Of a stretch of DNA of 64,000 nt, positions 12,685 through 64,000 are shown piece after piece (within the stretch, counting starts at the first letter, position 1; every line of letters begins with the position of its first letter). The translations under genes were made by a program, and so were the position numbers. Under the pieces are notes generated by a model. It saw only the letters and a list, made by a program, of their open reading frames with translations, was not told the origin of the DNA and did no database searches. Source of the DNA: Xestospongia bergquistia (taxonomy: Eukaryota > Porifera > Demospongiae > Haplosclerida > Petrosiidae); the NCBI GenBank assembly GCA_963965975.1, contig OZ014411.1, forward strand, positions 9,363,501-9,427,500, in the 5' to 3' direction.

Positions 12685-14234
12685 ATGGAAGTTAGTGAGA
12701 ATGCTGTCCATCTATCCAATTCGAAGTCAACAGTTGAAAAGTTAGAACTTTCCATATCCAAAGAGAAAAGCTCTTTGAGATCAAAGTACAAAGGAAATGC
12801 TGTGAAGATCAAAGGGAAAAGTTTGCTCTCTAGTTCACCTGATCTTGAGAACACTACCTGCTGTTGTTGTAATATTTCTCCCAAAGTTTCAAAATGTTTG
12901 GAAATATCAGCACTTACAATTGGTATAGTGATTGTGCTAATTTTGCTATCTATTCCAATAATAACCCATATTAATCAAGTGAGTAAATCATAATAAGGTA
13001 GTATCATTATCTTCTTATGTCATTAGGACCTAAAGAAAAGACAAACAAACATTAAGAGCACTAATACAACTGTAAGTAAGACATCATGATAATGACAATA
13101 TTGAGATAGACCTAGTAAAAATATCAATATATTGGTAGTCACCCTCATAATAATAGACTACTATAGAATGGATGGTTAATATAGGAGAGATACGTGTCAG
13201 GTCTACTAAGTATTAAATGTGAATTCTGTCTAATATGTCATGTGTATTATATATTTAGTGTTCTGGTTATGGATCAAAGTCTTGTTTACAAGAAGATGTA
13301 TCATGGAGTTTAGTTCCTGCCATTAATAATGACTCAAAATGTCACTCTAAAGTATATTCAGGAAGTGCCTGCTCCTCCTTCCTCTCGAGCTGGCAGACCT
13401 GTGCACTAGGTGGATCAACGTCAGTGTTTATAAATGATTCTTCTTTATTTTCAGAAGTGAAAGTTAAAGACTTAATAACACAATTAGGTAAGACAACAGC
13501 ATAGAAAATAAAATACTTATTTAATTTGTTTGCTTATTTTTAACAGCTCAACTCCCTGACTCTTATTCATCCTGCAAAACAACTGGTGCTTCTTTTCTTT
13601 GTCAATATATTTTCCCTCTTTGTGACTGTGCAACTGGTGATCTATATTTGTCTTCAAGAGAGACTTGTGAAGAAGTTAGCACTGTAACATGTGGGACATT
13701 GTGGTCACTACTAGAAAAACTGATCCAACCACTCAAGTTACCAGATTGTTCAACACTACCCCTTGCTACATACCCATCAGGTATATACATGTACACAATT
13801 ATCTCACATAAAAGTATTGTATATATATAATTTAGATACAAGTGGTTCTGGTAACTCAAATCCTAGTCTTACGACTGGTAACTCATCTTTACAGCAAGAT
13901 ACAGTTTGTGATGACCAATTCATTAAAGTCAATGGAACATGTTATGCTAGATGTGATAGTTTTGAACAGAGTCCACATGATGTCACTGTTGCTCTAGACA
14001 TTGTACAAATTTTTGCTGCTTCTTATGGAATTATTGTTGGAGCTATTGTTCTTATCATTTCAATTGTTCGATGGAAAACAATGTATATTTGTCTATATAA
14101 ATAATCTATTTATTAAATCTCATATATTCCCTATAATTTTAGGTTGTGTTTTCCTTCAATTTTCATTGTTTACATGACAACAGCCTGTTGTATTATAGGT
14201 AAGCTAATACCTTATCTCTCTCTCTTTCAATCTT

Positions 14235-14269
<35 letters not shown>

Positions 14270-15570
14270 GCTGTGTTTATAATCATATCACCAATTAATA
14301 GATCCAGATTATATTGCAGTTCTGATGCTATAACAAAAGAAAGTTTCAATAATCCAACTATATTTTGCACAATATCAGGTCTGTGAATAATTTACTACAT
14401 TGTCAGAACTGAAATTGATTGAATCATTACGTATTTCTCATTAGGAGCAGTGTTCCATTATTTTTTTCCCAACATAACATTGTGGTGGTTCTTCCATGTT
14501 TGTTCTATATTTTATAAAGTTGTATTTCCCTTGAAAAGTAAACAGTATGAGAAGAAAGAAAAATACATTCATGTAGTTTTAGTACTTGCTGGTAAGCAAT
14601 ATAATATTGTTGGTTATCTTTAATTGAAAAAATTATAGTAATTAATGTTCTTGTTGATAGTTGCAGTAATTGCATAGCATGATAACATTATATAATTATG
14701 TCATATTCACTTTTATACTAGGTATCTTCATTCCCATACCTGGTTTATTACTAGCACTCTTGGTTCCAGACTGGGGTTACATAGTTAATCAATATCCTCC
14801 ATTTATATGCTCTCCTCAAAATCCAAATTTTTGGTACTATACAGCAATGTTACCTCTTAATGTTTTATTAGCTATTGGGGCTTCTTTGTTTGTTGTCATG
14901 TTCTGGACAATCCATAAAGTAAGGGAATTTAATAATAGTAAATACCTTTATATATTCCTTGATATTTCTATTACCATTATGTATTTTGTTTATCTAAGTG
15001 CAACTATGATATGTACTGTTTTATGATATCAACACAATGTAAATTATAGTACATAAACTATCACTTTATAGTTATGATGTTGTCTATTGAGGGTTTTGTT
15101 ACATCTTGTAGCATCAAGGTATATTTCCGGATCCTACCAGAAACAAAAGCAGTTTTAGTATCAGTACAGCAGAGAGAAAGATTCTTTTTGTGTTGTGTTA
15201 TTATGTTATATTTGGTGTTGTTATTTTAGCACATTATGGAGTCAATACAGCAAATCAAGATTTATTCAAAGATGCTCTAGTGATGTATTTTCATTGTCAA
15301 GCATTAGGCCATCCTCCAAATCAAACATCACAGTGTGATCAGAAAGAATATCAGCAATATATCTACCCTGAGCTTGCAGCAACCAGTTATTTGATGATGG
15401 GATTGATTCCCTCAGCACATTTAGCTTTTGTTGTCAACTGGAAGACTACATTTGACAAACTCATGTCTTTTGTTCGATATTACTGTCATTTAAAGATTGT
15501 AGGGAAGAAAACTTACTCTTTTAATAATCCAGACAAAAACGAGACTAAATTGTGCGATGTTCCTACATAA
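12685..15570 (+). CDS. Frizzled-like 7TM receptor with N-terminal membrane anchor, copy A
   Basis: Ten exons: 12685-12978, 13027-13071, 13259-13487, 13547-13780, 13836-14082, 14143-14198, 14271-14378, 14445-14591, 14722-14918, 15112-15570; 671 aa. Order: cytosolic basic tail (1-72, Cys cluster 59-62), membrane anchor (about 73-95), linker, cysteine-rich domain (about 114-265: YSGSACSSFLSSWQTCALG, then FLCQYIFPLCDC, TCEEVSTVTC, LPDCSTLPLA), Cys-rich linker (TVCDDQF, CYARCD), then seven helices. Class F landmarks are CFPSIFIVYMT (TM2), PNITLWWFFHVCSIFYK-type TM3, DWGY with FICSPQN (ECL2) and the ALGHPPNQTSQC ECL3. It is the most diverged complete copy: longer CRD start (CSGYGSKSCLQED), longer tail, and WKT at 629-631 after TM7. 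Ligand and signalling are unknown. All introns are GT-AG. Confidence 0.85.
14221..14270. repeat. TC/CA microsatellite forming an acceptor tract
   Basis: A (TC)n then (AC)n run ends in ACACAG exactly at the exon 7 boundary of copy A, so the simple repeat serves as pyrimidine tract and acceptor. Other copies have non-repetitive tracts here. Confidence 0.8.
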
Positions 15571-17173: not shown

Positions 17174-20100
17174 ATGAACGAGAAAGAAGTCAAAGACAAT
17201 TCTAAAACAATTACCTTTGTTTCCAATTCAAGTCCTCCAGTAGAAAAGACAGAGTTCTCTATAACTCAAGATATTACTGCCAAATCTAATGATAAGAAAA
17301 AGAAAATGAAGAGAAAGCTCTCTAGTTCAGAAGATGATACTACTACTTTCTGTTGTTGTAACGTTTCACCTAAAGTTGCAAAATGCATTGAATTTTCAGG
17401 ACTTATTACTGGTGTGGTCATTGTACTGATGTTGTTCTCTATCCCCATAATAAGTCATTATGTCCTAGTACGTGTAAAATAATGTACCAAGAATTATGTA
17501 TCATTAATTGATTATTACATTTTCTTGTTACATTCATAGGAAATGAAGAGTAGCCAGCCACTAAATACAACTGTAAGTAAAACTATACCATTGGCATTTT
17601 AATTTTTTGAAACTCCTCAAAAAGAAAAAAATGTATACATATATTTAGATATATGTATACATATATGTAAATATGTAAAATGATATACCAAGAATTATGT
17701 ATCATTAATTGATTATTACATTTTCTTGTTACATTCATAGGAAATGAATAGTAGCCAGCCACTAAATACAACTGTAAGTAAAACTATACCATTGGCATTT
17801 TAATTTTTTGAAACTCCTCAAAAAAAAAATGTATACATATATTTAGATAAAGAGAAGATACATTTATTAATTTGATTAATCATGACTATAGTGTGATACA
17901 TGTTTTGCTATGCTATTATTCACTATTGTAGCAAATGAAATTGTCAGAGTCCAGGGTTGCATGAATTAGAACATCCATATGTGAAAACACAATTATTCCT
18001 GATGATGTTGACGTTAATTGACAAAACTATAGGTTAAAAACATCCTTGTTGATTTAATTGTAAAGGCTTTATCAGCAATTAAAAGTTGAACAAGAGGTGT
18101 CTAGCGTAGCCTGTTCATTGTCACAAACAATGATAATATCAATAATTAAATTCTCAAAATTTGTCAGTTTGTTTAAGAACAAATAACTTTGATATATATA
18201 TATATGTAGTATGTGTGTATGAGTATAACAATCATTTGATGACCTGCTTCTACTTCTAAAATAATACACTATTAAAATACATTGGTTGTTTTACTGGATT
18301 CATAATCATTTAGGTTGAATTGCATACATGTTTTGTCTTATTTACAAATCAGTATGGAATTAGTATGGAATTGATTGTTTGAATGATGTCTGAAATGATA
18401 AGATACATTATTATTTTTAGCTAATAGCTACATAAACTGTCAATTCCAGTTACATTAGTTATCAATTCAATGTTATGTTTACTACATGCAATCTGTATAA
18501 CCAAGTATTAGTTAGTTCAAAATCAATTTTTACGATTGGTAGCATATTTATGCACTTACATGAATATAGACCAGTTGTATTGTAAAGGAGATTTACTAGC
18601 TATTGAAATTTGTGTTATCAATATATTGTTGTTGTTTTTTTAGGAGAAGTCCACAATTTTCTTTTACCAGGATTTGTGAATTCATTTTATTTCCTTCTTA
18701 TAGAATGGAATGAATAAACTTGCACTTAATTACTAGAATAGATTACTTTGTAGATGAAATGTGGATTTCACCTCCATAACAGCTTTACTTTGTCTGTTCT
18801 CTGATGTTAAATGTAATGAAAGTATGGCCAACCTAGTTAATTTTTATGTCTCAGCTCAGGAATATACTGTGTGTGTTAGTATTAAAATTATATGTGTACA
18901 ATATAGTCATGTAGAATTAATCTACTATGGTATTTGGCAAGTGTATTTCAATTATAGAGAATTAAAATGACACAATTATGACATTTGCACAAAGAAGTTG
19001 AGCACAATAACAGACTGCCTTCTCAATAGATGGGGACAGCAGTATGAGGAAGAGATTACACATGTTTGATGATGATGTTCGTCTTTACACATAGTTAAAT
19101 GTTTTGTTTATTATTTTTTTGCCTAATTTTTGTCAGCTCTGAATCTCCCTCTCTTATATAAGTAACATACTTTGCATAGTCAGTAGTTATTGGTCATTCC
19201 ATAAGCATTCAATCACCTCTTCTTTATGTATCTATCACATTTAATGACCATTCCAAAAATGAATATTAATAAAACATAAGTTGAAATGTAGAAATGGAGA
19301 CATCTATATTTTGCTTTAACTAGACAATTTTTTAAAAAGCTGTTGATGAATGGTAAAGATAGTGTGTTATCAACTCAATATTTTGGAGTGTCCACTTTGT
19401 ATGTAAGTGTATCTGAGGTGTACTCTAAGTAACCAGGCTCTTGTTAGTCTATGTTATGTATGAACACTAGCAACTCTAAAATCATATGTGCAATTCAAAG
19501 TTGTTAAAACTTTATTTCTATACATTGAATAATATTTCTGCTATCACATCCAGCATGTTTTGGAATGAGCGATAAATGCTATATCACTGCTAGTAAATAT
19601 TAGTGTAATAATATTTTAACTTTGTTAGTTGAGTTTCGTGTTTGTCAATAGTTTCCCTTTTCTATGTGATGTCATATAATATGCATATCTTTACATTATC
19701 ACACTGTAAAAATTAAATTATTATTTTAACAATTAGTGGGTTACTATGGAATATAGAATTTATGTGAATTACTCATTGTGTAATTGTTTAGCATGTAAAA
19801 GTACAACATACTGAGAAATTACACAATGAGTAATTCACAAAGTTCGATATATTATGGTAAACCACCAATGTAAACTACAAAGTAATTGTTAAAATAATTT
19901 AATTTTACAGTGCGATCATTATCTGGATTAACTAGCCAGACTACTGACTCCAACTAATTGTTCATTTGACCTACTAACCAACATTCCATGCCTTTTAAAT
20001 TGTCTGCATGCATATAACAGATAGTATAATGTTTGCTAGTACGTATGCACAAGTAGTACATTTGATGGTATTTTCTTATATACTACTTGCTTATGGCTAG

Positions 20101-22883
20101 TATCAGCATGTCATAAGACTATATACATCATACATATACATCAACTCAGTTAACTTAATTATATCTGTTATAAAACAAACACAGGGATACACATACTCTA
20201 TCTTATTACTAGTCCTTTAACATTATAAATCATTACATAGAGAAACTAATGAGTGTCATACTCATACATATTAAATTTATGGTCCAGTGATTGAACTGTC
20301 CCACCTAGTTTCTCTCTTTGTTAAGGCATTATCTTGACTACTTTCTTTTGTCAATCTTAGAAAAGAGGCCTATATAGTCCCTTCATTGTAGCTATATTAC
20401 TATCCACTGATTCAACACTATAAAAACCATCACTGGAATAATTTTACAAATTATATGGTATGAAACCTATGAAGATTTATTGAATATAATCATTTTAAAT
20501 CAATGTAAATATCCCATCTTGTGCATACATATAACCAATTAAAAATGTTTATTTCATCATGCATAGATACTATTATGGCCATAGTTACTATGAGTTAAAT
20601 TGTGATAAGAAACAAACCAACACTATGAACAGTATGATTAAGAGAAAATTGTAATAACTGTAGAGTCTATAACTTTGCCTTTGTTAATAGTTTAATAAAC
20701 AGTCTAAGTATACATTTTTTGCCTTTTTGAAAGACGTTCTAATTACATATTCGTTTGTTCATACTTGTCTTTTGCTTAGGGTTTGTTTTATCAATATTTT
20801 ATTTGTATTTTCAGAATTGCTCACAAAAAGACTTATCATGGAGTGTTGTTCCTAAACTTATTAATGTTTCTAAATGTTGTGCTAATGCATATTCAGGAAG
20901 TGCTTGTTCTTCCTTTCTTTCAAATTGGCAAACATGTGCATTAGGTCAATCAACATCAGTGTTTGTACATAACACTAGTGGGTTATCAGAAGATAGAATA
21001 ACACAAATCATTACAAGCATAGGTAAATTTATAAATAAAGAAATGATTTTGTTAAGTATCTTTTAACTTAACAGCTCAACTCCCTGACACTTTTTCATCC
21101 TGCAAAAGAACTGGTGTACCTTTTCTTTGTCAATATATTTTCCCTCTTTGTGACTGTAAAACTGGAGATCTATATTTACCATCACAAGAGACCTGTGAAG
21201 AAGTTAGCACTGTTACATGTAGGGCACTGTGGCCACGACTGGAACAAGCATTACAACCACTCAAGTCACCAGATTGCTCTACACTACCTATGGCTACATA
21301 CCCACCAGGTATATACATATATATATATATATTTATATGGTATAAATGGATTTCTATACACAGATATAGATATTAGTGGTTCTGGTAACTTAGACATTAG
21401 TCCTACTACTGGTACCTCATCTTTACCTCAAGATACAGTTTGTGCTGATCAATTTATTAAAATCAATGGAATATGTTATGCTCGATGTGATAGTTTTGAA
21501 CAGAGTCCACATGATGTCACTGTTGCTGTACAAAATATACAACTGGTCTCTGCTTGTTATGGATTTATTGTTGGAATTGTTGTTCTTATCTTATCATTTG
21601 TGCGTTGGAAAACAATGTATGTTAATTATGACGTTTTATTTGATTTAACTATTGAATGTTTTTTATATAGGTTGTTTTTTCCTTCAATTTTTTTAGTTTA
21701 CATGACAGCGGGCTATTGTATTGTAGGTAAAGTATTATTATGTGTGTTCATTTCAATCTCTCATTGTCTTACTTTTTCAGTTTTTTTTATTATTCTTGGA
21801 CAAATTGATAGATCCAAATTGTATTGCAATTATGTTGCTATAACAAAAGAAAGTTTGAATGATCCATCTAAATATTGTCTTGTAACAGGTTGGACAATGA
21901 TATTCTCTATGAATAATTAGTCTAGACTCAAACTGATACTCATTATGTCTCTTTTAGGAACAGTATTTCATTATTTTATTCTCAACATGGCATTGTGGTG
22001 GTTCTTTCATGTTTGTTCAATATTCTATAAAATCATGTTCCCCTTGACAGCTAAACAATATGAGAAGAAAGAAAAGTACTTCCATATAGTTTTACTAGTT
22101 ACTGGTATGTTTCACTGTATGAGACAATGTAAATAACATCAATTTATGAATTTAATGAACAAATTACACTGATTGTCTCATTCCAATACTAGGTATCTTC
22201 ATTCCCATACCTGGAGTATTACTAGCACATTTTATTTCTGATTGGGGTTATGTAGTAAATGAGTTTCCTCCATTTTTATGTTCTCCTCAAAATCTAAACC
22301 TTTGGTATTATTCAGCAACTTTACCTCTTAATATTTTATTAGCTATTGGAGTCTCATTGTTTTTTCTAATGTTCTGGAAACTTCATAAAGTAAAGATAAT
22401 AATACTGACTCATTTTAATATTCTTTGTCTACACAGCATGAAGGCATATTTCGCACCAGGAAAAAAAGTAGTCTTGGCATCAGTACAGCAGAGAAAAAGA
22501 TTCTTTTTGTGCTATGTTATTATGTTATATTTGCTGTGATCATGTTGGTGTATTTTGGACTCGTTACAGCAGATACTGATTCATTTATAGAAGCTCTAGA
22601 GACATATTTACGTTGTCAAGCATTAGGACATTTACCAAATCAAACATCACAGTGTGATTCAAAGGAATATCAACAATATATCTACCCAGAGCTTGCTGCA
22701 GCCACCTATTTTTTACTGGGCTTTATTTCCACGGCAAATTTAATGTTTGTCATCAACTGGAGCACTGTCACCAAATTTTGTTCACGATATTATCGAAAGA
22801 AAGCAAAATCATCAAAATTTAATTTTGCTAATCCTCTTTTGCCCGTTGTGTCTGATGTCACAGTTAGCACTCAAATACAATAA
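17174..22883 (+). CDS. Frizzled-like 7TM receptor with N-terminal membrane anchor, copy B
   Basis: Exons: 17174-17467, 17540-17572 (with a near-copy at 17741-17773), 20815-21022, 21075-21308, 21364-21616, 21671-21726, 21781-21888, 21958-22104, 22193-22389, 22437-22883. With one copy of exon 2 the product is 658 aa, with both 669 aa; both are in frame. The N-terminal 98 aa carry a Lys-rich stretch, FCCCNVSPK and a hydrophobic anchor. The cysteine-rich domain spans exons 3-4. Exon 5 carries TM1 and may start at CAG|ATATAG or six bases later. TM2 is FFPSIFLVYMTAGYC, TM3 is LNMALWWFFHVCSIFY, and ICL3 is FRTRKKSSLGISTAEKK. The tail after TM7 reads NWSTVTKFCSRYYRKK. Intron 2 is about 3 kb, the longest except for D's, and holds a foldback element. 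Role: cell-surface receptor by architecture; ligand unknown. Confidence 0.85.
17480..17880 (+). repeat. Tandem 201-bp duplication containing exon 2 of copy B
   Basis: The stretch from ATACCAAGAATTATGTATC through exon 2 and its downstream AAACTCCTCAAAA…ATGTATACATATATT is repeated with a 201-bp offset (17540 to 17741). Both units keep acceptor, 33-bp open exon and GTAAGT donor. One substitution changes Lys to Asn. Confidence 0.9.
17774..20814 (+). other. Intron 2 of copy B
   Basis: This long intron is alignable by eye with intron 2 of C, D and G (for example the GTGAATTCATTTTA…AACTTGCACT block near 18675). It holds a foldback element at 19702-19915. No exon is supported between 17774 and 20814. 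Confidence 0.6.
19702..19915. mobile_element. Foldback MITE in intron 2 of copy B
   Basis: The left arm CACTGTAAAAATTAAATT…TTTTAACAATTA and the right arm TAATTGTTAAAATAATTTAA…TTTTACAGTG are inverted copies. An inner inverted pair GTGAATTACTCATTGTGTAA / TTACACAATGAGTAATTCAC surrounds a short loop. It is non-coding. A diverged fragment with GTAAACCAC…GTTAAAAT is seen near 63199. Confidence 0.8.
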
Positions 22884-23320
22884 TTGAATAATTGTCTTTG
22901 AAGTATTTGATTGTGTTTCATTATTATATATTACTTTTTTAAAAATAGTTTTAAGATAACGTTAGTGTTTTCTTTAAAATGTGATTAAAACTCCATAATT
23001 AAGCACATTGACTGGGAGAGGAAGAAATATGTTATTAGGAAATAACAATACACAGACAACACAAACCACAGTTCTGTTAATTTGAGAATAAAAAGGAAAA
23101 AACACTTCCTACAAGGAGTGTCATGACTCATCCAAAGTTTTGAATAATTACCCTAGATGTTATAGAAAACTATGTGGTATCTATCAAGGACATTGATAAC
23201 TCATACATATAAACATATGCACTCTACCAGTAGATAGATTATCATGTTATTCATTCAATCAAAGGGAATTATTAATATATTGTCAAAGACATATACATTT
23301 CCTCAAGAACGTATTCATGT
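22884..23320. other. Spacer after copy B
   Basis: Non-coding. The block CACAAACCACAGTTCTGT at about 23060 recurs near 33990 and 46920, so this is part of the repeated inter-gene spacer of the array. Confidence 0.5.
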
Positions 23321-23918
23321 TCACCTAAAAATCTAAATCTTTGTTATTATACAATAACTTTACCTAATAACATTTTAGTAGCTATTGGGGTGTCATTGTT
23401 TGTTCTAATTTTCTGGAAACTTCATAAAGTAAGAATATTAATAACTAACCATTTTAATATTTGGTTTCTTTGTCCACATATCATCAAGGCATATTTCACA
23501 TCAAGAAAAAGTGCTATTATCAGTACAGTTGAGAAAAAGATTCTGATTAAAATGTCTTATTTTATATTTACTGTGATCATGTTGGTAGATTTTGGAACTG
23601 TACAGCAAATTCTGTTGCATTCAGAGAAGCTCTAGAGACATATTTCTGTTGTCAAGCATTAGGACATCTACCCAATCAAACATCACAGTGTGATCCAAAG
23701 AATTATCAACAATATATCTATCCAGGATTTGCAGCAACTACTAACCTATTAATGGCATTTTTACTACAGCAAATTTAATCTTTGTCATCAACTGGAGCAC
23801 TATCACCAAATTGTGCTCATGACATCATCATAAAAAGGAAAGATCATCAAATGTTACGTTCCCTAATCCAGATTTACATGTTGTCGTTGATGTCACAGTT
23901 AGCACTCAAATACAATAA
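23321..23918 (+). pseudogene. Receptor pseudogene fragment (exons 9-10)
   Basis: The exon 9 end (CACCTAAAAATCTAAATCTT… to CATAAAGTAAG at about 23430) and most of exon 10 (from about 23487) match the intact copies. Exon 10 is broken by small deletions: the frame is lost near 23610-23640 and again near 23765, where TTTACTACAGC replaces the usual longer sequence. Exons 1-8 are absent. It is a dead copy lying directly behind B. Confidence 0.85.
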
Positions 23919-25435: not shown

Positions 25436-26240
25436 AAAATTGACAGATCAAAATTGAATTACAATTCTGTTGCTATAACAAAAGAAACCTTAAATGATTC
25501 AACTATATTTGTCATGTAACAGGTGGGACAATGATGTTCTATGTACATTATTACAAACTAATACTCATATATGTCTCTTTTAGTAGCAGTATTTCATTAT
25601 TTTGTACTAAATGTTACATTATAGTAGTTCTTTCATGTTTGTTTAATATTATATAAAATCATATTTCCATTGACAGCTAAAAGATATATGGACAATGAAA
25701 AATATTTCCGTTTAGTATTACTGGTAGGTTTCATTGTGTGAAACAATGCCATGACATCAATTTATGAATTCAATCAGCATATTATACCTATCAAACATTT
25801 CTTCATTCATCTTCCTATGTTGTTTAGATGTAGTGCATATTACATTATATACATATAGTGTATTTATATATATGCAGATGTCATTAATTCTTAAAAGTGC
25901 ATGGTATACCTACTAATATTAAATTTTTGCAAACATACTTTTACTGCTATTATTAATATAATTCATGGCACAGCTCAATATCCAACATCTGATGTTATCT
26001 AATTCCAATACTAGGTATCTTCATTCCATTACTGGAGTATTACTAGCACTTGGTTCAATTCCATTCCATTTTTATGTTCACCTTAAAAATCTATATCTTT
26101 GGTATTATACAAAATTTTATCTATTGTTCTAATTTCTAAAAACTTCATCGAGTAATAATAATAATACTTACTCATTTTAATATTCCTTGTCCACACAGCG
26201 TCAAGATGTATTTTGTACCAGGAAAAAAGTTACTTTGATG
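25436..26240 (+). pseudogene. Receptor pseudogene fragment (exons 7-10)
   Basis: Recognisable pieces are exon 7 (about 25440-25520), exon 8 (about 25583-25720, where the conserved TGG-TGG pair reads TAG-TAG), a shortened exon 9 (about 26014-26150, internal deletions and frame loss) and the first ~40 bp of exon 10 (about 26200-26240). The upstream ~1.5 kb resembles receptor intron 2, so this was once a fuller copy. Confidence 0.82.
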
Positions 26241-35039: not shown

Positions 35040-35100
<61 letters not shown>

Positions 35101-43170: not shown

Positions 43171-43268
43171 ACGTATTTGTGTTTCATTATTGCACATTGT
43201 TTTGTTTAGACTTTTTAAAGAGAACATGAGTTTTTCTCTTAAAATATAATTATAACAGGACTTTAGTA

Positions 43269-46509: not shown

Positions 46510-46782
46510 ACGTACGTGAACTTTCGGCGTAAACGTTCTGCTGGGTGGAGCATAGGCAATGTATTATTGGACTGTATTGGTGGAACATTGAGTATATTAC
46601 AAATGTTTCTTATTTCTTGTAACTATGGTAACTATCTGTCAATTTTATTGGTCTATCTATCCATTAATATATTCTATGTGTCTATTCTAATGCTTCTGTT
46701 CAACCATTCAGATGACTGGAAGTCAATTTTTGGAGATCCTACTAAATTTGGTCTCGATGCCTTTTCCATATGTTTTGATACA
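46510..46782 (+). pseudogene. CTNS: Cystinosin C-terminal fragment
   Basis: Two exon pieces, 46510-46627 and 46712-46782, separated by an 84-bp GT-AG intron. Joined, they read [20 protein letters not shown]…[16 protein letters not shown], then [20 protein letters not shown]. This is the last third of cystinosin, the lysosomal cystine/proton symporter (PQ-loop family). A good acceptor (TTTGTGTAG) precedes the first piece and GTGGGT follows the second. The N-terminal part, the first PQ loop, the final helix and the C-terminal lysosomal sorting signal are not in the neighbourhood. It therefore looks like a duplicated gene fragment stranded in the receptor array, with no internal stop. Upstream cystinosin exons were looked for in 44-46.5 kb and not found. 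Confidence 0.85.
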
Positions 46783-47265
46783 GTGGGTCACTAAATACCT
46801 GTCAATTTGTTGCTGCTGTCATGTTATATTAATGTAAAGTTGAAAAATATCTTGAAATATATAGGTAAGTAAGAACACTACTATATTCATAGGATGCAAA
46901 CAACAGATAGACAACACAAACCACAGTTCTGTCAATTTGAGAGGAAACAACAAACATTTTCTACATAAAGTTTAGCATAAAAGTTACTAACAACAAGAAC
47001 TGAACTCAAAATACATTGGGTAGAAAATGGATTGGAAGATTGACCCTATAATGATTTATTTTCTTTAGGCATTTTCAATACACTGTTAGTCCAATCAATT
47101 CAGACAGTTTTAGTCACCAGTGGTGTAATTACCATGCTGATTTCTGAATAATATTTGATATTATAGAGAAACATGAGATATCTATTAAGGAAATTGATCT
47201 CTAAAATTTATTAACATTTTGAACTTTAGCAGTTGAGAGATGCACGTGATTGTTATTAGCATCAT

Positions 47266-47445
47266 AAACTGGTACCATAAACTGGTTTGACAGTTATGTC
47301 TCTTGTATAGTACTACTATTGTTCAATAGGAACTATTAATAAATTGTCTAAGATAGTTTTCCTCATGAACATAATGATGTTGTGTTACAATAGTAGTACT
47401 ATACAGGTGACATAACGGTCAAACCAGTTTATGGTACAAGTTTAT
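47266..47445. repeat. Inverted repeat of promoter-like block upstream of copy G
   Basis: TACCATAAACTGGTTTGACA…CTTGTATAGTACTACTATTG on the left is the reverse complement of CAATAGTAGTACTATACAGG…GTCAAACCAGTTTATGGTAC on the right. Arms are about 55-60 bp, separated by about 65 bp. Confidence 0.85.
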
Positions 47446-47503: not shown

Positions 47504-50500
47504 ATGGAGGAGACAAAAGTCAGAGACAACTCTAAAGCAATTACATTTGCAACCTATTCAAGTCCTCCAGTAGAAAAGATGGAGCTCTCTACAATTCAAG
47601 ATATTAATGTCAAACCTAGTGCAAAAAAAATGAAGAAATGGTTCTCTAGTTCACAAGATGACACCACAACCTGTTGTTGTTGTAATATTTCACCTAAAGT
47701 AGTAAAATGCCTTGAATTATCAGGACTTATTGCTGTTATTGTCATTGTAGTGATGTTGTTCATTATTCCCATAATAAGTCATTTTGTTCAAGTAAGTGGA
47801 TAATAAGCACCAATAATTATCATTAATTGATTATGACATATTCTTGTTACATTTATAGGAAATGAGGAGAACACAGCACAACATTAATATACCAGATACC
47901 ACTAATACAACTGTAAGTTAAACTATATTATCAACATATTTAGCACTTGAAACCCATAAAAGTGTATTATGTAACCTGATTTGCAATAATGGACCACTCT
48001 GGTATAACATTTGTGACCTGATTTGAGAAAAGGGACCACTGTTAAAACATCTCAGTAAACAGTTTTGTCTAAATAAATTTGTTATAAAAAAACTGTTATT
48101 CATGATAATTGTATGTATATCCCTTTCCACAAATCAGATCACAATATTTTGACATAAGTGGTCTCTTATAGCAAATCATGCCACGTGTGTATACATACAT
48201 TATAGATAGATGTTGTTGTTATTAAATTGACTGCACTGTTTTTCTATTTCATAATCACTTCAGTTGCAAATGTCTTTACATAATTTGTCTTGATTACTAA
48301 TTATTATGGAAATAACTTCTCAGAAGATAGAAGACTGACTACAGTACAATTACACACTTACTTTATTTAATAATCATTAGTAAATAGAGTCTGAAGCCAT
48401 CATTATGTAAAACAGTTAGTCTGCTACTAAATGCCCTTTTCAAGAAGTCACTTGTTGAATTATATGAAATATCAGTTGAATAATAATTGGTAATGAAAAC
48501 AATATGTGTCTTTAAATGTATTTATATGAAGGATGCATACGATCTAAGTGAGTATGAAGTAATCAATCATTTTAACAGTATAATAATAATTGGTCAAATT
48601 GGTAAACATTGTTAAGATTCATTGTTTCATTTAAATATTATATGGTTATACAGGTTATACATATCAAACATATTTGATGCAAAATGATATTTTAAATCTA
48701 TATTTTTTATGAATGCAGACATCCATACAAAATATAAATTAAACAAATATTATTATTAGTTCGAAACATTAGTTACATAGTCAATTTCAAGTAATTAATA
48801 ATCAAAACAGTATCTAGTGTAGTTTTGCATCAAATAGGTTTGCCACATGTTACTTAAATAAATGCTTATTAACTATATCAACCACTCGATCTTTACATTG
48901 TATTAATTGCACTTAGTTTTCATAGTATACTGCATACATGTACATAAAAATAGACCACTTATATTGTAAGGAGGTTTACTAGTTGTTAAAATATGTGGCA
49001 TCAATATGCTGGAGGTTTATTAGGAGAATACATAATTTCTTTGTACTAACTTTGTGAATTCATTTTAGATCCTCTTTATAGAATAGTATGACTAACTTGC
49101 ACTCAATTAGATTGTTATGCAGATAATATGTAGAGTTGACCTCCATAGCAACTTCAATTAGTCTTATCCCCAGATTCCCTGACATAGAATGTAATGGGAG
49201 TCTAATCAACTGACTTAAAATTTATGTTTCAGCTCAGGAATGCATTGTGTATGTTGGTATGAAAATTGTATATGTGTAATGGACATAAACAATGAACATT
49301 TAGTCTGCCACCATATTTGGTATGTTTTGGTAATTATATATATATAAAATAAAAAATGACACGTCACAATTATCACCACTTGGACATCAGGATCAAGGAA
49401 GCTGAGCAAATACCAGACTTTTAGTGGGCTCCCAAAGATATATCTTGAGCAGACTTTTCCCCATAATTATTAAAAAACTTTGTCACAAAATTCAGTGTGG
49501 GAATGTAGTTAAAAAGCCAAAGTGAATGGCAAAGTAAAGTTGATGATAGTAATGTTTTTTTTTACTTAATAAAATTATGTTTGGTAAATTGTAACAGGTT
49601 TTGTGCAACGTACATAGATGACACATATTACATTAACATTAAATGTAGAAGATAGAGAGTTTGGTATAAGTTATTGCTTTGTAGTATTGATAGGTATTAC
49701 TTCAACATAATATCACTACTGCAGCTCATACTTGGGACTAAAATTAAACAAGATGTAATTAGAAGAATGGTATACTAACTATAAAGTCTGTAGTTTTGCC
49801 TTTTGTTAATAGTTTCATAAAAAGTCTAAATATACATCTTTTGACTTTTTAAAAGACATTCTAATTACATATTCGTCTGTTCATACTTGTCTTTTGCTTA
49901 GAGTTTATGTTTCATCAATACTTTTTTGTATATTTCCAGAATTGTTCACAACAAGACTTATCATGGAGTGTTGTTCCTGATGTTATTAATGTTTCTCAAT
50001 GTTGTGCTAAACCATATACGGGAAATGCTTGTTCATCCTTTCTTTCAAATTGGCAAACCTGTGCATTAGGGCAATCAACATCAGTGTTTGTGCATAACAC
50101 TAGTTTGTTATCAGAAGATCAAGTCACAAAACTCATTATAAATATAGGTAAATTTATAAACAAATAACATGGTTTTGTTAAATCTCTTTTAATTTAATTA
50201 ACAGCTCAACATCTTAACTCTTATTCATCCTGCAAAAGAACTGGTTTACCTTTTCTTTGTCAATATGTTTTCCCTCTTTGTGACTGTAAAACTGGAGATT
50301 TATATTTATCATCACAAGAGACATGTGAAGAAGTTAGTACTGTTGCATGTAGGACATTGTGGCCACTACTGGAACAAGCAATACAACCACTCAAGTTGCC
50401 AGATTGCTCTACACTACCTATGGCTACTTACCCACCAGGTATATACATGTATATAGTTATATAAAATAAATGGATATCTATATACACATGTAGATATGAG

Positions 50501-52272
50501 TGGTTCTGGTAACTCAGACATTAGTCCTACTACTGGCACCTCATCTTTGCCTCAAGATACAGTTTGTGATGATCAATTTGTTAAAATCAATGGAACATGT
50601 TATGCTCGATGTGATAGTTTTGAACAGAGTCCACATGATGTCACTGTTACCTTAAAAAGTGTACGACTGTTTGCAGCTTGTTATGGATTTATTGTTGGAA
50701 TTGTTGTTCTTATCTTATCATTTGTGCGTTGGAAAACAATGTATGATAAATATAATGTTTTACTTAATTTCAGCTAATACATTGCTTTTATATAGGTTAA
50801 TTTTTCCTTCAGTTTTTTTAGTTTACATGACAGCAGGCTATTGTATTTTTGGTAATCAAATGCTATGTGTGTTCTTTTCACTGTCTCTCTCCCTTTCAGC
50901 TATTTTTGTGTTTGCTTCACAAATTGACAGATCCAATTTGTATTGTAATTCTGTTGCTATAACAAAAGAAAACTTTAATAATTCAACTATATTTTGTCAT
51001 CTAGCAGGTGGGACAGTTTTTTTCTGTATACATAATTAGTCTAGATTCAAACTGATACTCATATATGTCTCTTTTAGGAGCAGTATTTCATTATTTTGTA
51101 CTAAACATTACATTGTGGTGGTTCTTCCATGTTTGTTCAATATTCTATAAAGTTATGTTCCCATTGACAGCTAAACAGTATGAGAAAAAAGAAAAGTACT
51201 TCCATATAGTTTTATTAGTCACTGGTATGTTTCACTGTATAGAGAATCACATGACATTAATTTATGAATTCAATCAACATGTTACACCTCTCAAACATGT
51301 CTTCATTTATAATTTTCCTACACATATTGTTTACAAGTAGTGTTTATCAGTATGTAAACAGATGTTCATTTAATAGTGATACCTAGTTAAACATGTGATA
51401 ATGCCATTGCTATTATTTTATGATACATATTGCTTATAATTAGTGTTTATTAGTATGCATACAGATGTTCATTTAATAGATGTACCAAGTTGAGTTATTA
51501 TAAACATGTCAATATAATACTAACATAATTCATAACTGCTATATTTTTCACATTTGATGTTATCTCATTCCAATACTAGGTATCTTCATTCCCATACCTG
51601 GAGTATTGCTAGCATTTTTAATTCCAGATTTGGGTTACGTAGTAAATGAATTTCCTCCATTTTTATGTACTCCTCAAAACCAAAATCTTTGGTATTATTC
51701 AGCAAATTTGCCTCTTAACATTTTAATAGCTATTGGAGTCATATATCTTGTTCTAATGTTCAGGAAACTTCATAAAGTAAGAGAATAACACTGGCTCATT
51801 TTAATATTTGTTTATATTTATCCCACAGCATGAAGGTATATTTCGCACCAGGAAAAAAAGTAGCCTTGGCATCAGTACAGCAGAAAAAAAGATTCTTTTC
51901 GTCCTGTGTTATTATGTTATATTTGCTGTGATCATGTTGGTGTATTTTAGATTGGCAACAGCAGGTACTGATTCATCTAAAGAAGCTCTAGAGACATATT
52001 TACGTTGTCAAGCATTAGGACATCTACCTAATCAAACATCACAGTGTGATCCAAAGGAATATCAACAATATATCTACCCAGAGCTTGCTGCAGCTACTTA
52101 TTTTTTAATGGGATTTCTTACCACAGCAAATTTAACCTTTGTTATCAACTGGAGCACTGTTGCCAAATTCTGCTCACGATATTTTTGCAAGCAAAAAAAA
52201 TCATCAAATGTTATGCTACCTAATCCACATTTACCTGGTGGGAATGATGTCACAGATAGCTCTCAATTGTAA
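47504..52272 (+). CDS. Frizzled-like 7TM receptor with N-terminal membrane anchor, copy G
   Basis: Exons: 47504-47791, 47859-47912, 49940-50147, 50205-50438, 50494-50740, 50796-50851, 50900-51007, 51078-51224, 51580-51776, 51829-52272; 660 aa, no stops. Exon 1 is two codons shorter than in C and D; the tail carries TCCCCNISPK before the anchor. The cysteine-rich domain has KPYTGNACSSFLSNWQTC and FLCQYVFPLCDC. TM3 is LNITLWWFFHVCSIFYK. ICL3 is FRTRKKSSLGISTAEKK. ECL3 is RCQALGHLPNQTSQCD. After TM7 comes NWSTVAKFCSRYF. Intron 2 carries a full palindromic MITE. Exons 4, 8 and 10 are extremely close to those of C and D, suggesting recent duplication or gene conversion. Function unknown beyond a class F-like surface receptor. 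Confidence 0.87.
47913..49939 (+). other. Intron 2 of copy G
   Basis: A 2-kb intron, with the MITE at 47967-48187 and then sequence alignable with intron 2 of the other copies. No exon is supported inside. Confidence 0.65.
47967..48187. mobile_element. Palindromic MITE in intron 2 of copy G
   Basis: TTATGTAACCTGATTTGCAA on the left, TAGCAAATCATGCCACGTG on the right, with the GGGACCACTGTTAAAACATC arm. It starts about 55 bp after exon 2, as in C and D. Confidence 0.82.
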
Positions 52273-53636: not shown

Positions 53637-54460
53637 ATTTCGTTAGATCTCTTTTAACTTAACAACTCAACTCTCTGATACTTATTCATCCTGCAAAAGA
53701 TCTGGTGTACCTTTTCTTTGTCAATATGTGTTACCTAAAACTGGAGATTTATATTTACTATTATCACAAGAGATTGTCAAGAAGTTAGTACTGTTACATG
53801 TAGGACATTGTGGCCACTACTTGAACAAGCGATACAACCACTTAAGTTGCCAGATTGTTCTACACTACCTATGGCTACATTATACACCAGGTATATACAT
53901 GTATACAGATATATAGTATTCACCAGCTGACTGCAGAGAGAGAATTCTGGAGCTTTTCTGTTAGAGTTCTCAGGTATTAGAAACTTTGGAAACCTATCAG
54001 AAATATACTCCAAGGTTAGAACTTGCTATTAGTAAGTCAATCTATTAGTTATTTTTATAACTTCTTTTATAACTATCGTAAACATTGATTTGGATCCATG
54101 TTGAAAAGGAAGCATTGAGTTTTAATCTGCTGACACTATTTGATGAAGTTTCAATAACATCATTGACAACAATAAGGTTAGAATTGTATACTTATAATTA
54201 TTAGTGATATCATTTTCTCTTTGGAATAGGATAAGAAAACTTCAATATACCTCAAGCAATAATCATACTAAAAAAACTCTTTAAAGAAACTTTGTTTATG
54301 TGTCCTGACATGTAATGTAAAATACAAGTAATTTGTATACTACTGGTATTTAAAGAGAAAGATAATTATTTACAATCTTACTTAAACTAGACATTGACTC
54401 CACGTGCAGTCACGTGAAGTCATTCAAAAATAATAATTTATTTTTAAAAAAGAATGGAGA

Positions 54461-55070
54461 CTAGTAATAAAAAAATTTTCTACAAAAATTAAAACATGTA
54501 GGGATGCTGCTATAAAAACTAAGGAAACAAAAGCATGATAGTGATGAAAATAGTAGGTTATCATCACTACATAGCAGCACAGTGAAACAATACCATTGAA
54601 CTAATATAACAAACATAAGTTGGTGACAACATTGATTGTTGGATCTATTTGTAAGTGAATGTGAAAAGTGTGATGAAATTGTTAATCCTGCTTATCAAGA
54701 TCAGCATCTTGCAGTATTGCAACGAAACATTACCAAATTTGGTAGTTTTGTCATATGCAAAACAAATGAAACTACCCACTGGAGTAACTTGAACTATTGA
54801 ACTAGCAATTCTGACATCACTGATCATTGTGTCTATTCATTTAAACTAATGTGAATAATGTGATGAAATTGTCAAACTTAAGACAATAGAATGAAACATT
54901 GTTAAATGTTAACAATGGTTAATTGCTTTAGAAATGATATTGTTTCACTGTGCTGCTATGTAGTGATGATAACCTACTATTGTCATCTCTATCATGTTCT
55001 TGTTTCTTTAGTTTTTATAGCAGCATCCCTACATGTTTTAATTTTTGTAGAAAATTTTTTTATTACTAGT
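54461..55070. mobile_element. Foldback element with ~130-bp inverted termini
   Basis: The left end CTAGTAATAAAAAAATTTTC and right end GAAAATTTTTTTATTACTAG are inverted. The match continues through ACATGTAGGGATGCTGCTAT and TATCATCACTACATAGCAGC. The interior holds a diverged direct repeat (GTGATGAAATTGT…GAAACATT at about 54670-54735 and 54860-54900). No usable reading frame. Confidence 0.88.
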
Positions 55071-55085
55071 AGAATAAATGGATTC

Positions 55086-55867
55086 CAGGGTTGGGGTTAA
55101 TTACATTAGAATGATTATGATTACGATTACACAGTGATTATGCAAGGTGATTACTATTACAATTATAGGGAAAAAAGCATGATTATGATTATGATTATGA
55201 TCACAGAGCCATCATTACAACTATGATTACGATTACAGATTACAGTGTAGCAATGACATCTGCAATATATATGTTACTGTAACATTGTGTATATAGGAAT
55301 TTTGTAAAATCCTTGAAACTTTCAGGGAGTTTGTGAAATCACTTTTTATTTAGGGACTTCATAAATTCATTAAAAACTCTAGTGATTTGCATAACACTAC
55401 ATTAAAAGAAGTGTGAACTGCTCTGAACTATGTTAAATCCTCAGAGTAGTCATCAAATTTATGGTACTATTTCCAGTAATTTCATGAAATTGCTAGAGTT
55501 GTCAGTGAATTTATGAAGTCCCTAAGTTAAAAAGTGACTTCACAGACTCCCTGAAAGTTTCAGGGATTTCGTAAAATCTGTATATACACAATCTTACTGT
55601 AACATATATAGGCTTTTTACAAAAATTGCAAGGAGTAATCAGTCTAACCACATGTTCTTTCATGCATTATTTCATAAATTTACACAAGAAGATGCTAACA
55701 CAGGCAACATGTACTTGTTCCATGTACTACTTGCAAAGGCTACTGTAATTGCTGTAAACACTTGTGATTACTACAATTACTTTGATTACGATTATTATTC
55801 TGATTACACCAAAAAAGCAATTGATTATTATTGATTACGATTACGATTGTAATTGGCCAAAACCCTG
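55086..55867. mobile_element. hAT-type MITE rich in GATTAC
   Basis: Begins CAGGGTTGGGGTTAATTACA and ends TGTAATTGGCCAAAACCCTG. The flanking 8-mers are ATGGATTC (55078-55085) and ATGGATTT (55868-55875), an 8-bp target duplication with one change, as expected for hAT elements. Subterminal regions are GATTAC/GATTATG repeats. It interrupts intron 4 of pseudogene H: the right flank is receptor intron sequence. A second foldback is nested at 55266-55612. Confidence 0.88.
55266..55612. mobile_element. Foldback MITE nested in the hAT-type MITE
   Basis: The left arm TATATATGTTACTGTAACATTG…CTTTCAGGGAGTTTGTGAA and the right arm TCCCTGAAAGTTTCAGGGA…CTTACTGTAACATATATA are inverted over about 150 bp, with a central loop. 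Flanked by TA-rich DNA. Its insertion post-dates the hAT-type MITE. Confidence 0.85.
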
Positions 55868-56040
55868 ATGGATTTTTATATACACATGTAGATATCAGTG
55901 GATCTGGTAACTTAAACATAAGTCCTATCTATTGACACCTCATCTTTACCTCAAGATACAGTTTGTGTTGACAAATTTATTAATATCAATAGAACATGTT
56001 ACCCTCGATGTGATAGTTTTGAGTTAACGAGATCCAACAA

Positions 56041-58069: not shown

Positions 58070-58485
58070 ATGGAGGAGACAGAAGTCAGGGACCACTTTA
58101 AAGCAATTACATTAAATTCCAATTCAAGTCCTGCAGTAGAACTGATAGAGATCTCTACAACTCAAGATATAACTACCAAAATAAGCTCTAAGACAAAGTG
58201 AAGATATGGCTTTCTAATTCACAAGATGATACTACTACCTGCTGTTGTTGTAATATTTCATCTAAAGTAACAAAATGTCTTGAATTATCAGGACTTATTA
58301 CTGGTATAGTCATTGGACTGATGTTGTTCTCTATTCCCATAATAACTTATTATGTCCTAGTAAGTGAATAATAAAGTATCAATAATTATGTATCATTAAG
58401 TGATTTTTATATTGTCTTGTTACATTCATAGGAAATGAGGAGTATACAATCCAACATTAATATACCATATACTACTAATACAACT
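58070..58485 (+). pseudogene. Receptor N-terminal cassette I (exons 1-2), frameshifted
   Basis: Exon 1 (58070-58359) and exon 2 (58432-58485) match the family. A 4-bp deletion relative to cassette J (AAGACAAAG for AAGACAAACAAAG) gives TGA before the Cys cluster. Donors are intact. No CRD or 7TM exons follow before cassette J. Upstream sequence is intron-2-like and lacks the conserved promoter block. Confidence 0.85.
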
Positions 58486-59641: not shown

Positions 59642-60061
59642 ATGGAGGAGACAGAAGTCAGGGACCACTTTAAAGCAATTACATTAAATTCCAATTCAAG
59701 TCCTGCAGTAGAACTGATAGAGATCTCTACAACTCAAAATATTACTACCAAAATAAGTTATAAGACAAACAAAGTGAATTGCTGGCTCTCTAATTCACAA
59801 GATGATACTACTACCTGCTGTTGTTGTAATATTTCATCTAAAGTAGCAAAATATCTTAAATTATCAGGACTTATTACTGGTATAGTCATTGGATTGATGT
59901 TGTTCTCTATTCCCATAATAACTTATTATGTCCTAGTAAGTGAATAATAAAGTATCAATAATTATGTATCATTAAGTGATTTTTATATTGTCTTGTTACA
60001 TTCATAGGAAATGAGGAGTATACAATCCAACATTAAGATATCATATACTACTAATACAACT
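59642..60061 (+). CDS. Receptor N-terminal cassette J (exons 1-2), no body
   Basis: Exon 1 (59642-59935, 98 codons, open) and exon 2 (60008-60061) with good donors. Encodes the cytosolic tail with TCCCCNISSK and the membrane anchor. It differs from the family by Cys to Tyr just before the anchor and Lys-Arg to Asn-Cys (VNCW for VKRW). No cysteine-rich or 7TM exons follow in the window. It could be spliced to a body beyond the edge, skipping K, or be a non-functional duplicate. Like I, it lacks the conserved upstream motif, so its own promoter is doubtful. Confidence 0.5.
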
Positions 60062-61620: not shown

Positions 61621-61663
61621 ATTCGAATTCCGTTTTGTTAGTCACAGTGTCTGGCTGATAAAT

Positions 61664-62064
61664 TATGGAGGAAACAGGAAGTCAGAGTCCATATTAAATT
61701 AGAATCCAATTCACGTCCTGCAGTAGAACAGATAGAGATGTCTACAACTCAAGATATTACTACCAAAATAAGTTATAAGAAAAACAAAGTGAAGAGATGG
61801 CTCTCTAATTCACAAGATGATACCACTACCTGCTGTTGTTGTAATATTTCATCTAAAGTAGCAAAATGTCTTGATTTATCAGGACTTGTTACTGTTATAG
61901 TCATTGTACTGATGTTGTTATCTATTCCTATAATAAGTCATTTTGTCCTAGTAAGTGAATAATAAAGCATCAATAAATATCATTAAATGATTTTTTTGTT
62001 ACATTTATAGGAAATGAGGAGTATACAGCACAACATGAACACACCATATACTACTAATACAACA
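61664..62064 (+). CDS. 5' end of a further receptor copy K (exons 1-2), partial at window edge
   Basis: Exon 1 (61664-61950) and exon 2 (62011-62064) have good splice sites. The first codons are frameshifted (a one-base gain and about eight bases lost, giving TAA within 11 codons). A downstream Met at 61738 restores a 71-codon exon 1 that still contains the Lys-rich stretch, TCCCCNISSK and the anchor. The window ends in the conserved block that lies about 100-200 bp before exon 3 in other copies, so a cysteine-rich domain exon is expected just past 64000. Either a shortened N-terminus is used or the copy is dying. Confidence 0.6.
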
Positions 62065-64000
62065 GTAAGTTAAAGATTATTGTCAACTTTTTCATTATTT
62101 AAAACATCACAAAAAGAAAATATGCATACATTGATAATGGATATATAGAAGCTGCTGCTGTTATTAAATTGATTAGTGAAGATAACAGTGATATAGATGT
62201 TTTTCTGATTCATAAATACTTTGACTGCACTCAAGAAATGTTCTGCATTGTTTACTAATTATTATGAATAGATTGTTTGAATGACTTCTCATAAAATAGA
62301 AGACTGACAACAGTACAACTGCACACTAAGTTTATTTACTAATAATTAGTAATTAGAGACTGAAGCCATCATTATGAATGAGTAGTTAGTCTGTATGTAT
62401 GTCCACTTACTAAGTTGCGTAGGTGAAGTACATGAATGATAGTAATTAGTACCCAAAACAGGATATGTCTATAAATGTATTTTATATGAAGGATGCATGC
62501 TTGCTGACTATGTATCAATTAAAACTATCAATCTGTTTTAATAATAGTATATAATAATAATTGGTTTGGTTCACAGTAAAAATTAATTGGTTGATTTAAG
62601 CAATTACGATATATCAGGTAAATGATATAAGTAACTATGTAGGGAAGATCCAGATTGTCAATTATAATGTATTGGGAGAAAATGATCTCACTCAAATCTG
62701 ATCAAAATCTTTCAATTCTTTTGGAGTATTCCTTTGTATGATAATCCCTTCAACAAGTTTTCTAAGCATTATAGACACAATTAATAAAATGTTGGATTTG
62801 GCCATCTTTCCTCTGTCACTGCCTCTGTGGTAACCCTAAACAGTTTAGACACCAAATTCACAGTGGTAACATACTTAACTACAAAGTGTTGCCTTCTTAG
62901 GTGTCAGTTTAAGTGCTTAAGAAGAAAAACCAGGATTTCAACAGTTCGCTATCAACAACTACAATTAGGCTTAATTAAGAGAAATACACAATTTCCTTAT
63001 CCAGTATTTGTGAATTCATTTTAAATCCTTATTATAGAGTAGTATGATTAATTTGCACCAATTAACAAGATAGCTTACTTTACAGGTAATATGTGTATTT
63101 AAACTCCAGAATAACTTTACCTAGTTTTGTCTCCATGCTCCTTAATATTTCATGTTATAGGAGTCTGGTCAATTCTATATTCCATAGTAATCCATCTATG
63201 TAAACCACAAATTAGTTGTTAAAATGAGATATTAATTTCTACAGTGATACAGGAGTCTGGTCAACTGACTTAATACTTACTTTATCACAGCTTTTGAATT
63301 CAGTGTGGAATGTATGTTGAAGAGCCAAAGTGATTGACAAATACAACTTGATGACTGTAATGTTTATAACATATTATTAATAAAATGATGTATGGTGAAT
63401 AGTAAACATAGATAGAGAAGATATTCAAATTAACATGTTGATAAGACAAAGAATAATAGCAAAACACAATATGAATATTAAGTAGATGCTACTATATAGT
63501 GAACTGTCTATAATCAGTATATATCAACACTATGAACAGTGTTTGGATCTTTCTTATCTTTAGCTGTTGTTAATATCTTGATAAAGTAATGATTACATAT
63601 AGAACAATTCATTCAATACTATCAATCCAATCAATTGATTAATTAATCTAAAAAAATCTAATTTATCAGTACAAATTTTTGTAGATTGTTAAGATTGATA
63701 GAAAATATTTGTTAATTTTTAGGTCAATTATGTTAAAGTAGCTTTAGACAAAATAAATATCAATGTGTTAAAATTATATAAGACAATTTCTGTGCAATGT
63801 ACATAGATGATTTGTCATATCTAACATTAAGATTAAATGTAGAAGATAGAGCATTTAGAATGATATAGATTGGTTTGTAGTACTTAAATAGTAATATGTC
63901 ACCATAATATCACTATTGCATTTGACACCTGACAACACAATTATAATCAATATAAGCAATCAAAGATTGCAATAATTTATAAAGTCTGTATTTGTTAACA
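62065..64000 (+). other. Intron 2 of copy K (runs off the window)
   Basis: Alignable with intron 2 of the other copies throughout: GTGAATTCATTTTAAATCC near 63009, TCAGTGTGGAATGTATGTTG near 63300, TGTGCAATGTACATAGATG near 63791 and AAAGTCTGTA…TGTTAACA at the edge. No exon is seen. Confidence 0.65.

Follow-up and report, generated by a model that had tools for sequence, protein, structure and literature searches.

Does a group of genes in a sponge genome encode receptors with one membrane helix more than their class normally has? The stretch of DNA that raises this question, called the window below, is 64,000 nucleotides (nt) long and covers 9.36-9.43 Mb of contig C1 (OZ014411.1) in the 146.5 Mb assembly of Xestospongia bergquistia. 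It holds a tandem array of genes whose products carry a hydrophobic stretch in the first exon, a Frizzled-type (Fz) cysteine-rich domain (CRD) and a region of seven transmembrane helices (7TM). Class F receptors are known chiefly as a few developmental receptors, with their CRD behind a cleaved signal peptide.

An earlier note on this DNA proposed that the first exon supplies an additional, uncleaved helix. As far as can be told from sequence, the array probably encodes related surface receptors of a class F-like type, each with eight membrane helices, and the predicted architecture is well supported. The family is also much larger than this one array.

Gene models

The gene models, c1 to c5, were assembled from the raw sequence one exon at a time. 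All five lie on the forward strand between 12685 and 52272, and each has ten exons that are open from ATG to stop, for proteins of 658-671 residues. The entry phases of the exons are 0,0,0,1,1,2,1,1,1,0 in every copy, and the anchor, the two-exon CRD and the 7TM exons are found in all of them. This bears out the claim of five complete ten-exon copies with identical intron phases. Introns are GT-AG in 44 of 45 cases; intron 6 of c3 is GC-AG.

The first gene, c1 (12685-15570, 671 residues, all introns GT-AG), has its exons 1-5 at 12685-12978, 13027-13071, 13259-13487, 13547-13780 and 13836-14082, and its exons 6-10 at 14143-14198, 14271-14378, 14445-14591, 14722-14918 and 15112-15570. A spliced alignment with c3 as the query agrees with this model at exon 2 and exons 4-9, and sets other boundaries at the beginning of exons 1 and 3 and at the end of exon 10. 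The other complete genes are c2 (17174-22883, 658 residues), in which exon 2 is duplicated (17540 and 17741), c3 (28448-32311, 665 residues), c4 (34499-40075, 662 residues) and c5 (47504-52272, 660 residues).

The repeats of the array are not due to chance. Repeat family D3, for example, consists of five units of 300 nt that are 75-100% identical and spaced 7.3-12.2 kb apart. The array had been described as running from 12685 to 64000. Five complete copies agree with that description, but the last of these stops at 52272, and what follows are broken pieces and copies of exons 1-2.

Conservation of the layout

Whether exons 1-2 join exons 3-10 was judged by the conservation of exon order, exon 2 and phases among distant paralogs. 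These are a gene on contig C6 (L061, 55% identical to c3), genes on contig C8 (34% for L066) and a third subfamily, C6b, also on C6 (29% for L048).

The order of anchor exon, exon 2 (30-54 nt), CRD and 7TM is kept in these paralogs on two other contigs, and so are the phases. L061 has the same ten exons and phases as the array genes, anchor and exon 2 included. By reading, a hydrophobic exon is present upstream of the CRD exon in all five C8 genes examined, four of which (L060, L063, L064 and L066; L065 is the fifth) keep a 30-nt exon 2 and all phases. In L048, exon 1 is present, exon 2 measures 42 nt, the phases are those of the array, and exons 4 and 5 are fused. Since relatives at other places in the genome have this layout too, the genes appear to be an old, expanded receptor family and not an error in the gene models.

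Anchor helix or signal peptide

By one uniform measure over 12 family sequences, the hydrophobic core is 21-27 residues long and sits behind a tail of 12-73 residues. In four Fz-domain proteins from the same genome, selected for an N-terminus that can be read in a single frame, the core measures 13-18 residues and 0-6 residues precede it. In c1 the putative anchor helix, which may serve as the example of the extra helix, is encoded at 12904-12966 (forward strand, residues 74-94). It has 21 residues with a mean Kyte-Doolittle value of 2.69, and five cysteines lie within the 20 residues before it. The tail in the C1 and C6 genes is 68-73 residues long, with 7-14 lysines or arginines and 3-5 cysteines beside the membrane.

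It is likely that exon 1 encodes an uncleaved anchor with the N-terminus inside. Core length, tail and conservation support the topology that had been predicted for these proteins, with the N-terminus in, the CRD out, seven helices and the C-terminus in.

The strongest alternative is that the hydrophobic stretch acts as a signal peptide of unusual length and is cleaved off, which would make the mature protein an ordinary seven-helix Frizzled-like receptor. Several observations speak for this and against an anchor. In the copies of the C1 array (c1-c5 and a further array gene, g7) a cleavage site permitted by the (-3,-1) rule is found after a proline at the end of the helix, between S and H of IPIISH or, in c1, between T and H of IPIITH. 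The C6 and C8 sequences have permitted sites within the core. The C8 tail, at 12-17 residues (23 in L065), is short enough for a signal peptide. An asparagine interrupts the helix of L063, where the uncharged run is 16 residues and the insertion energy +1.0. Cysteines beside the membrane number 1-3 in C8, and with one each in L064 and L048 there is no clear cluster in those two.

Set against this are the long tails of the C1 and C6 genes with their basic residues and cysteines, and a core that is longer than in the four Fz-domain proteins of the same genome. In addition, L048 has no permitted cleavage site at all, and in C6 and C8 the helix end offers none. On balance the cleaved signal peptide is judged unlikely. 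Tail length and hydrophobic length favour an uncleaved anchor, and the permitted sites in C1, C6 and C8 count against it.

The density of N-glycosylation sequons was also tried as an argument for the topology and was rejected for the C1 genes. In these it is 1.4-2.7 per 100 residues in the tail versus 1.9-2.8 outside, which does not discriminate. Three C8 models have no sequons in the tail and 9-10 outside, which is the expected direction, but the tail is only 17 residues long.

Receptor class

The CRD matches the Fz domain family PF01392 in all five window genes, at 25.1-27.9 bits (E 3.8e-6 to 2.8e-5), without reaching the curated cut-off of 32.1. In c1, where it is encoded at 13259-13780 on the forward strand, it scores 27.5 bits. 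Among the paralogs the C6 gene (26.9 bits) and L066 (26.6) are also below the cut-off, and L048 (36.7) and the CRD of L053 (37.0), both in C6b, are above it.

PF01534, the Frizzled/Smoothened membrane region, scores above its cut-off of 22.3 bits in four of the five window genes (36.6 in c2, 36.5 in c3, 37.6 in c4 and 37.7 in c5; E 1.9e-9 to 4.4e-9). The profile scans report no PF01534 match in c1, the C6 gene, L066, L048 or the 7TM part of L053, and this counts against a class F assignment for the family as a whole: by PF01534, class F is seen for part of the family only. Matches to both families had been named as a check of the receptor reading. PF01392 is matched throughout the window genes, if below its cut-off, and PF01534 is matched above cut-off in all of them except c1.

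A ten-sequence 7TM profile was aligned by hhalign with three Frizzled sequences from the same genome, with a probability of 76, an E of 2.3e-5 and 265 columns; the control, with one MFS protein, gave 0.2. The alignment spans TM2 to TM7 of the Frizzleds, a register that was judged by eye. Over 11 models there are nine invariant cysteines in the CRD, three in the linker and five in the 7TM region. This 11-sequence alignment omits L065 (one frameshift, two stops, no clear exon 2), L060 and L050 (one frameshift each), L053 (one frameshift, two stops) and two array genes past the window, at 64127-66350 and 88992-93645 in window numbering. A scan against NCBIfam gave no match.

Profiles were also searched against the PDB. 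A profile of the five window CRDs finds ROR2 (9fse, E 2e-6) and then Ror2 (7me4, E 0.023), which we take to be the fly protein. A broader profile, from five sequences of C1, C6 and C8, adds MuSK (9lgg, E 0.0053), Smoothened (weak, E 0.02-0.35) and two chance matches. In its 7TM part the Smoothened chains, at that same weak E, are the only matches to a G-protein-coupled receptor (GPCR). Up to E 10 the five-CRD profile lists 4 PDB sequences and the broader profile 12, none of which is a chain named Frizzled.

These data bear on the idea that the 7TM region belongs to another GPCR class, for example adhesion/secretin or cAMP-receptor-like, which at some point acquired a CRD. It would fit the missing PF01534 reports (c1, the C6 gene, L066 and C6b), and it would fit a search of the PDB with only the 7TM profile built from the five window genes, which returned no receptor and one chance-level match. 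There is also a 7tm_2 (PF00002) match, seen in c3 alone, at 18.0 bits, under the cut-off of 20.6. However, PF01534 is the best 7TM family in the four window genes with a match, Smoothened is the only GPCR that the broader search brings up, weak as that is, and the family pairs with Frizzleds from TM2 to TM7. An adhesion GPCR was to be recognised by 7tm_2 above cut-off together with GPS or GAIN; the window genes lack this combination, with neither GPS nor GAIN in the domain listings of any of the five. An origin in another class is quite improbable.

The proteins could instead be true Wnt receptors, fast-evolving Frizzleds that use Dishevelled. They do have an Fz-type CRD and PF01534 matches, and the genome has Wnt matches at three places. 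The KTxxxW motif after TM7, which is the Dishevelled contact of Frizzleds, is nevertheless found in none of the 10 judgeable models (the 11th, L063, ends before it), versus three of four Frizzled loci of the same genome. These four loci are the PF01534 hits of the genome outside the family, each matched in a single open frame. One of them, L004 (C13, 5.56 Mb), scores 158.2 bits without KTxxxW, and is possibly Smoothened-like or another divergent class F member.

The CRD profile, as noted, comes nearest to ROR2, and the human ROR2 CRD is described as lacking a lipid pocket, while the related Nrk holds a fatty acid (PMC11219042). It would also be odd to find 55 or more copies in a genome with three Wnt loci. 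A role as Wnt receptors is quite improbable as well. The class F landmarks that had been claimed are present in part, with KTxxxW missing.

The joint of exons 1-2 to exons 3-10

Exons 1-2 almost certainly join exons 3-10. The order of the exons, exon 2 and the phases are conserved on three contigs, which favours the joint as it had been drawn. Exon 1 moreover is coding sequence under purifying selection in four comparisons with c1, where the nonsynonymous rate (dN, 0.34-0.36) is below the synonymous rate (dS, 0.85-1.02). The pooled dN/dS ratio is 0.56 for exon 1 and 0.83 for exon 2.

Some points count against the joint. The constraint on exon 1 is weak between close copies (c3-c4, dN 0.11 and dS 0.12). 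Splice sites in L061, L066 and L048 were placed manually following the C1 pattern, and L060, L063 and L064 were then aligned with L066 as the query. In c5 and g7, two of six array genes, exon 3 is immediately preceded by a hydrophobic run that contains an in-frame Met. A signal-peptide start at that place was considered and rejected. The stretch is open for 24-30 residues in c2, c5 and g7, with an in-frame Met in c5 and g7 only, and for merely 0, 5 and 12 codons in c1, c3 and c4. It is read as a T-rich acceptor tract, although the two Mets remain a reservation.

The distance from exon 1 to the CRD exon is 148-237 nt in L060, L063, L064 and L048 (148 nt in L048), which leaves little space for an alternative first exon. 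It is longer in L066 (1459 nt) and the C6 gene (656 nt). That exons 1-2 and exons 3-10 are separate transcripts, for a small type II membrane protein and a receptor with a downstream start, is very improbable. In its favour, intron 2 is 1.2-3.2 kb in c2-c5, signal-peptide-like ATG stretches with a phase-0 donor occur there in c2, c4, c5 and g7, and copies of exons 1-2 are stacked at 58070, 59642 and 61665. Against it, intron 2 of c1 (187 nt) and that of c3 have no such stretch, the gap is short in four of the paralogs (L060, L063, L064 and L048), exons 1, 2 and 3 still have phase-0 boundaries in subfamilies only 29-55% identical to c3, and the stacked copies do precede a set of exons 3-10.

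Proposed mechanism

In the eight-helix receptor proposed here, exon 1 would encode a signal anchor of type II, whose N-terminus faces the cytosol. It is probably palmitoylated on the cysteine cluster in the C1 and C6 genes, and palmitoylation is proposed for these alone because only there is the cluster clear. The CRD and the linker would be outside, followed by the seven helices and a cytosolic C-tail. Since the CRD sits in the loop between the anchor and TM1, it would be tethered at both ends.

A ligand would bind this doubly tethered CRD, and the CRD is somewhat more likely to be the ligand site than not to be. The lipid of Wnt is not an obvious ligand, because the CRD resembles that of ROR2 with its missing lipid pocket. 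A molecule from the environment or from a neighbouring cell seems likelier. The restricted movement of the CRD and the packing of the anchor helix would then be relayed to the seven-helix core. This core would signal via G proteins rather than Dishevelled, the former being the likelier route because KTxxxW is missing in every judgeable model; that G proteins are in fact coupled is put at even chances.

A role in sensing the environment or in recognition is suggested tentatively. Birth and death of tandem copies, many of them broken, is easier to reconcile with such a role than with a fixed developmental one. The mean pairwise difference among the five array genes is 0.20 in the CRD, 0.17 in the 7TM region, 0.33 in the tail and 0.37 in the C-tail. 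The CRD is therefore not hypervariable, which speaks against a classical allorecognition receptor. The proposal in full is a large family, founded by class F-like receptors of this animal lineage, with the CRD held between a palmitoylated N-in helix and the helix bundle, a design that would have arisen independently of ADGRG7 and would serve a lineage-specific sensing of environment or cells apart from Wnt. All of this together has somewhat less than even chances.

Relation to known receptors

Frizzled and Smoothened share with the array family an Fz-type CRD, a cysteine-bearing linker and seven helices with PF01534 similarity. The array family differs in having a tail and a putative anchor helix in place of a short signal peptide, in having no KTxxxW, and in a CRD nearer to that of ROR2. 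Its genes have ten exons and stand in tandem, while the PF01534 hits elsewhere in the genome are each in one open frame.

Corin and MFRP likewise unite a cytosolic tail, a signal anchor and an Fz-type CRD in a single chain, but they are single-pass proteins without a 7TM region. By sequence, the nearest solved domain is the Fz-type CRD of the ROR receptor tyrosine kinases (9fse, 7me4), with MuSK next. ROR kinases are single-pass type I proteins and lack a 7TM region.

To our knowledge there is no earlier eight-helix design in class F. The first eight-helix GPCR to be reported is ADGRG7 (GPR128), for which both termini were placed inside with tags in COS-7 cells (PMC11039983). Like the proposed array receptors it has an extra N-terminal helix and an extracellular domain anchored at both ends. 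Unlike them it is of the adhesion class with a GPS, is a single vertebrate receptor, and has a shorter isoform with a signal peptide as well. Given that the ADGRG7 design is already published, the array family would, if its topology is right, be a second and independent case, and a class F-like one. It would also offer a natural experiment in signal transfer from a CRD to a seven-helix core.

The Fsl receptors of social amoebae, compared here by their published description, likewise have a class F-like 7TM region and were amplified in a lineage-specific way. Their CRD is often divergent or missing, and in D. discoideum KTxxxW is confined to FslJ and FslK (PMC10445921). An N-terminal anchor goes unmentioned in the passages of that paper that were consulted.

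In one demosponge, a survey based on Pfam hits found nine Frizzled-like sequences, of which three were kept and six discarded as fragments (PMC4302439), and three Frizzleds were reported for the same species (PMC3251606). Another survey retains proteins of six to eight helices, so as to allow for signal peptides (PMC12716839). Filters of this kind may have hidden the extra helix, and surveys based on Pfam lose members below the cut-offs. No Frizzled-like receptor with an N-terminal anchor was found in titles and abstract openings from the open-licence literature, covering part of the matching papers.

The family across the genome

A genome search with c3 gives at least 111 matches. The array extends as far as roughly 9.495 Mb; a solitary CRD fragment lies at 9.53 Mb, and C1, C6 and C8 carry additional members. 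A search with a C8 member gives at least 125 matches, 121 of them on C8 (2.49-3.15 Mb) and four on C12. These searches scored 67 of 322 (c3) and 73 of 370 (C8 member) candidates, so the counts are lower bounds.

Copies were counted by hand, using only places that cover the exon-10 region. There are at least 55 such places, broken ones included: 18 in the C1 array, three elsewhere on C1, one on C6, 29 on C8, one on C12 and three in C6b. Alongside three Frizzleds with KTxxxW and three Wnt loci, the genome thus contains 55 or more copies of a class F-like receptor, and the family is a candidate for the sensing or recognition repertoire of this lineage.

The C6b subfamily consists of L048, L050 and L053, in tandem at 381-390 kb on C6, with CRDs that exceed the PF01392 cut-off. 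L048 is compact, at about 2.4 kb to the edge of the locus. The fusion of exons 4 and 5 is shared by L048 and L050, and in L053 these exons are separate.

Some other loci deserve mention. L031 (C1, 8.99 Mb) is a rearranged member in which the anchor is close to CRD exon 3 and exons 4-5 are seemingly missing. L046 and L051 (C6, around 407-410 kb, minus strand) contain a pair of Fz-like CRD frames, after which come a linker and a segment resembling TM1, possibly from a double-CRD relative. The first CRD frame of L046 scores 46.1 bits for PF01392 in the genome search, yet hmmscan finds no family in it; the second scores 35.9 bits. L049 and its neighbours (C14, 2.39-2.41 Mb) form a ROR-like receptor kinase locus with an Fz CRD, a kringle and the start of a tyrosine kinase, in a cluster with five CRD hits.

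Broken copies and neighbouring features

Between the complete genes of the window there are broken copies, all on the forward strand. A piece with exons 9-10 is at 23276-23915, where the spliced alignment has two frameshifts and one stop. Parts of exons 7-9 are at about 25438-26125. Parts of exons 4, 5, 9 and 10 are at 41846-43014, and parts of exons 4-9 at 44172-45512. These last two are probably separate broken copies; the spliced alignment over 40100-47400 has four frameshifts and four stops. Parts of exons 4-5 follow c5 at 53660-56022.

The three copies of exons 1-2 are also on the forward strand. Those at 58070-58485 and 61665-62064 have a broken frame; in the latter the ATG frame is 10 codons long, and the rest of exon 1 together with exon 2 is open in another frame. 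The copy at 59642-60061 is intact and could be the 5' end of the gene with exons 3-10 at 64127-66350, just past the window. This is the one exon 3-10 set that all three copies stand upstream of. The spliced aligner chose the anchor at 61665 for this gene, not the one at 59642. The stacked blocks may reflect duplication of 5' ends only, and possibly provide alternative first exons or promoters.

The 36 kb past the window contain one fully intact gene, at 68945-74378 in window numbering, and two that are nearly intact. The gene at 88992-93645 lacks an ATG where its start would be expected and contains a single stop close to its end.

Short pieces resembling exon 10 are found at 11283-11388 and 33849-33932, with 69-71% identity to exon 10 of c1, and are probably relics. 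Beside the array lie ordinary single genes, namely a diphthamide synthesis gene at 5454-6761 (PF01866) and an MFS transporter at 8019-9464 on the minus strand (PF05631). Near the start of the window, at 162-763, there is a tandem repeat of about seven units of 86 bases, the inner ones 99-100% identical.

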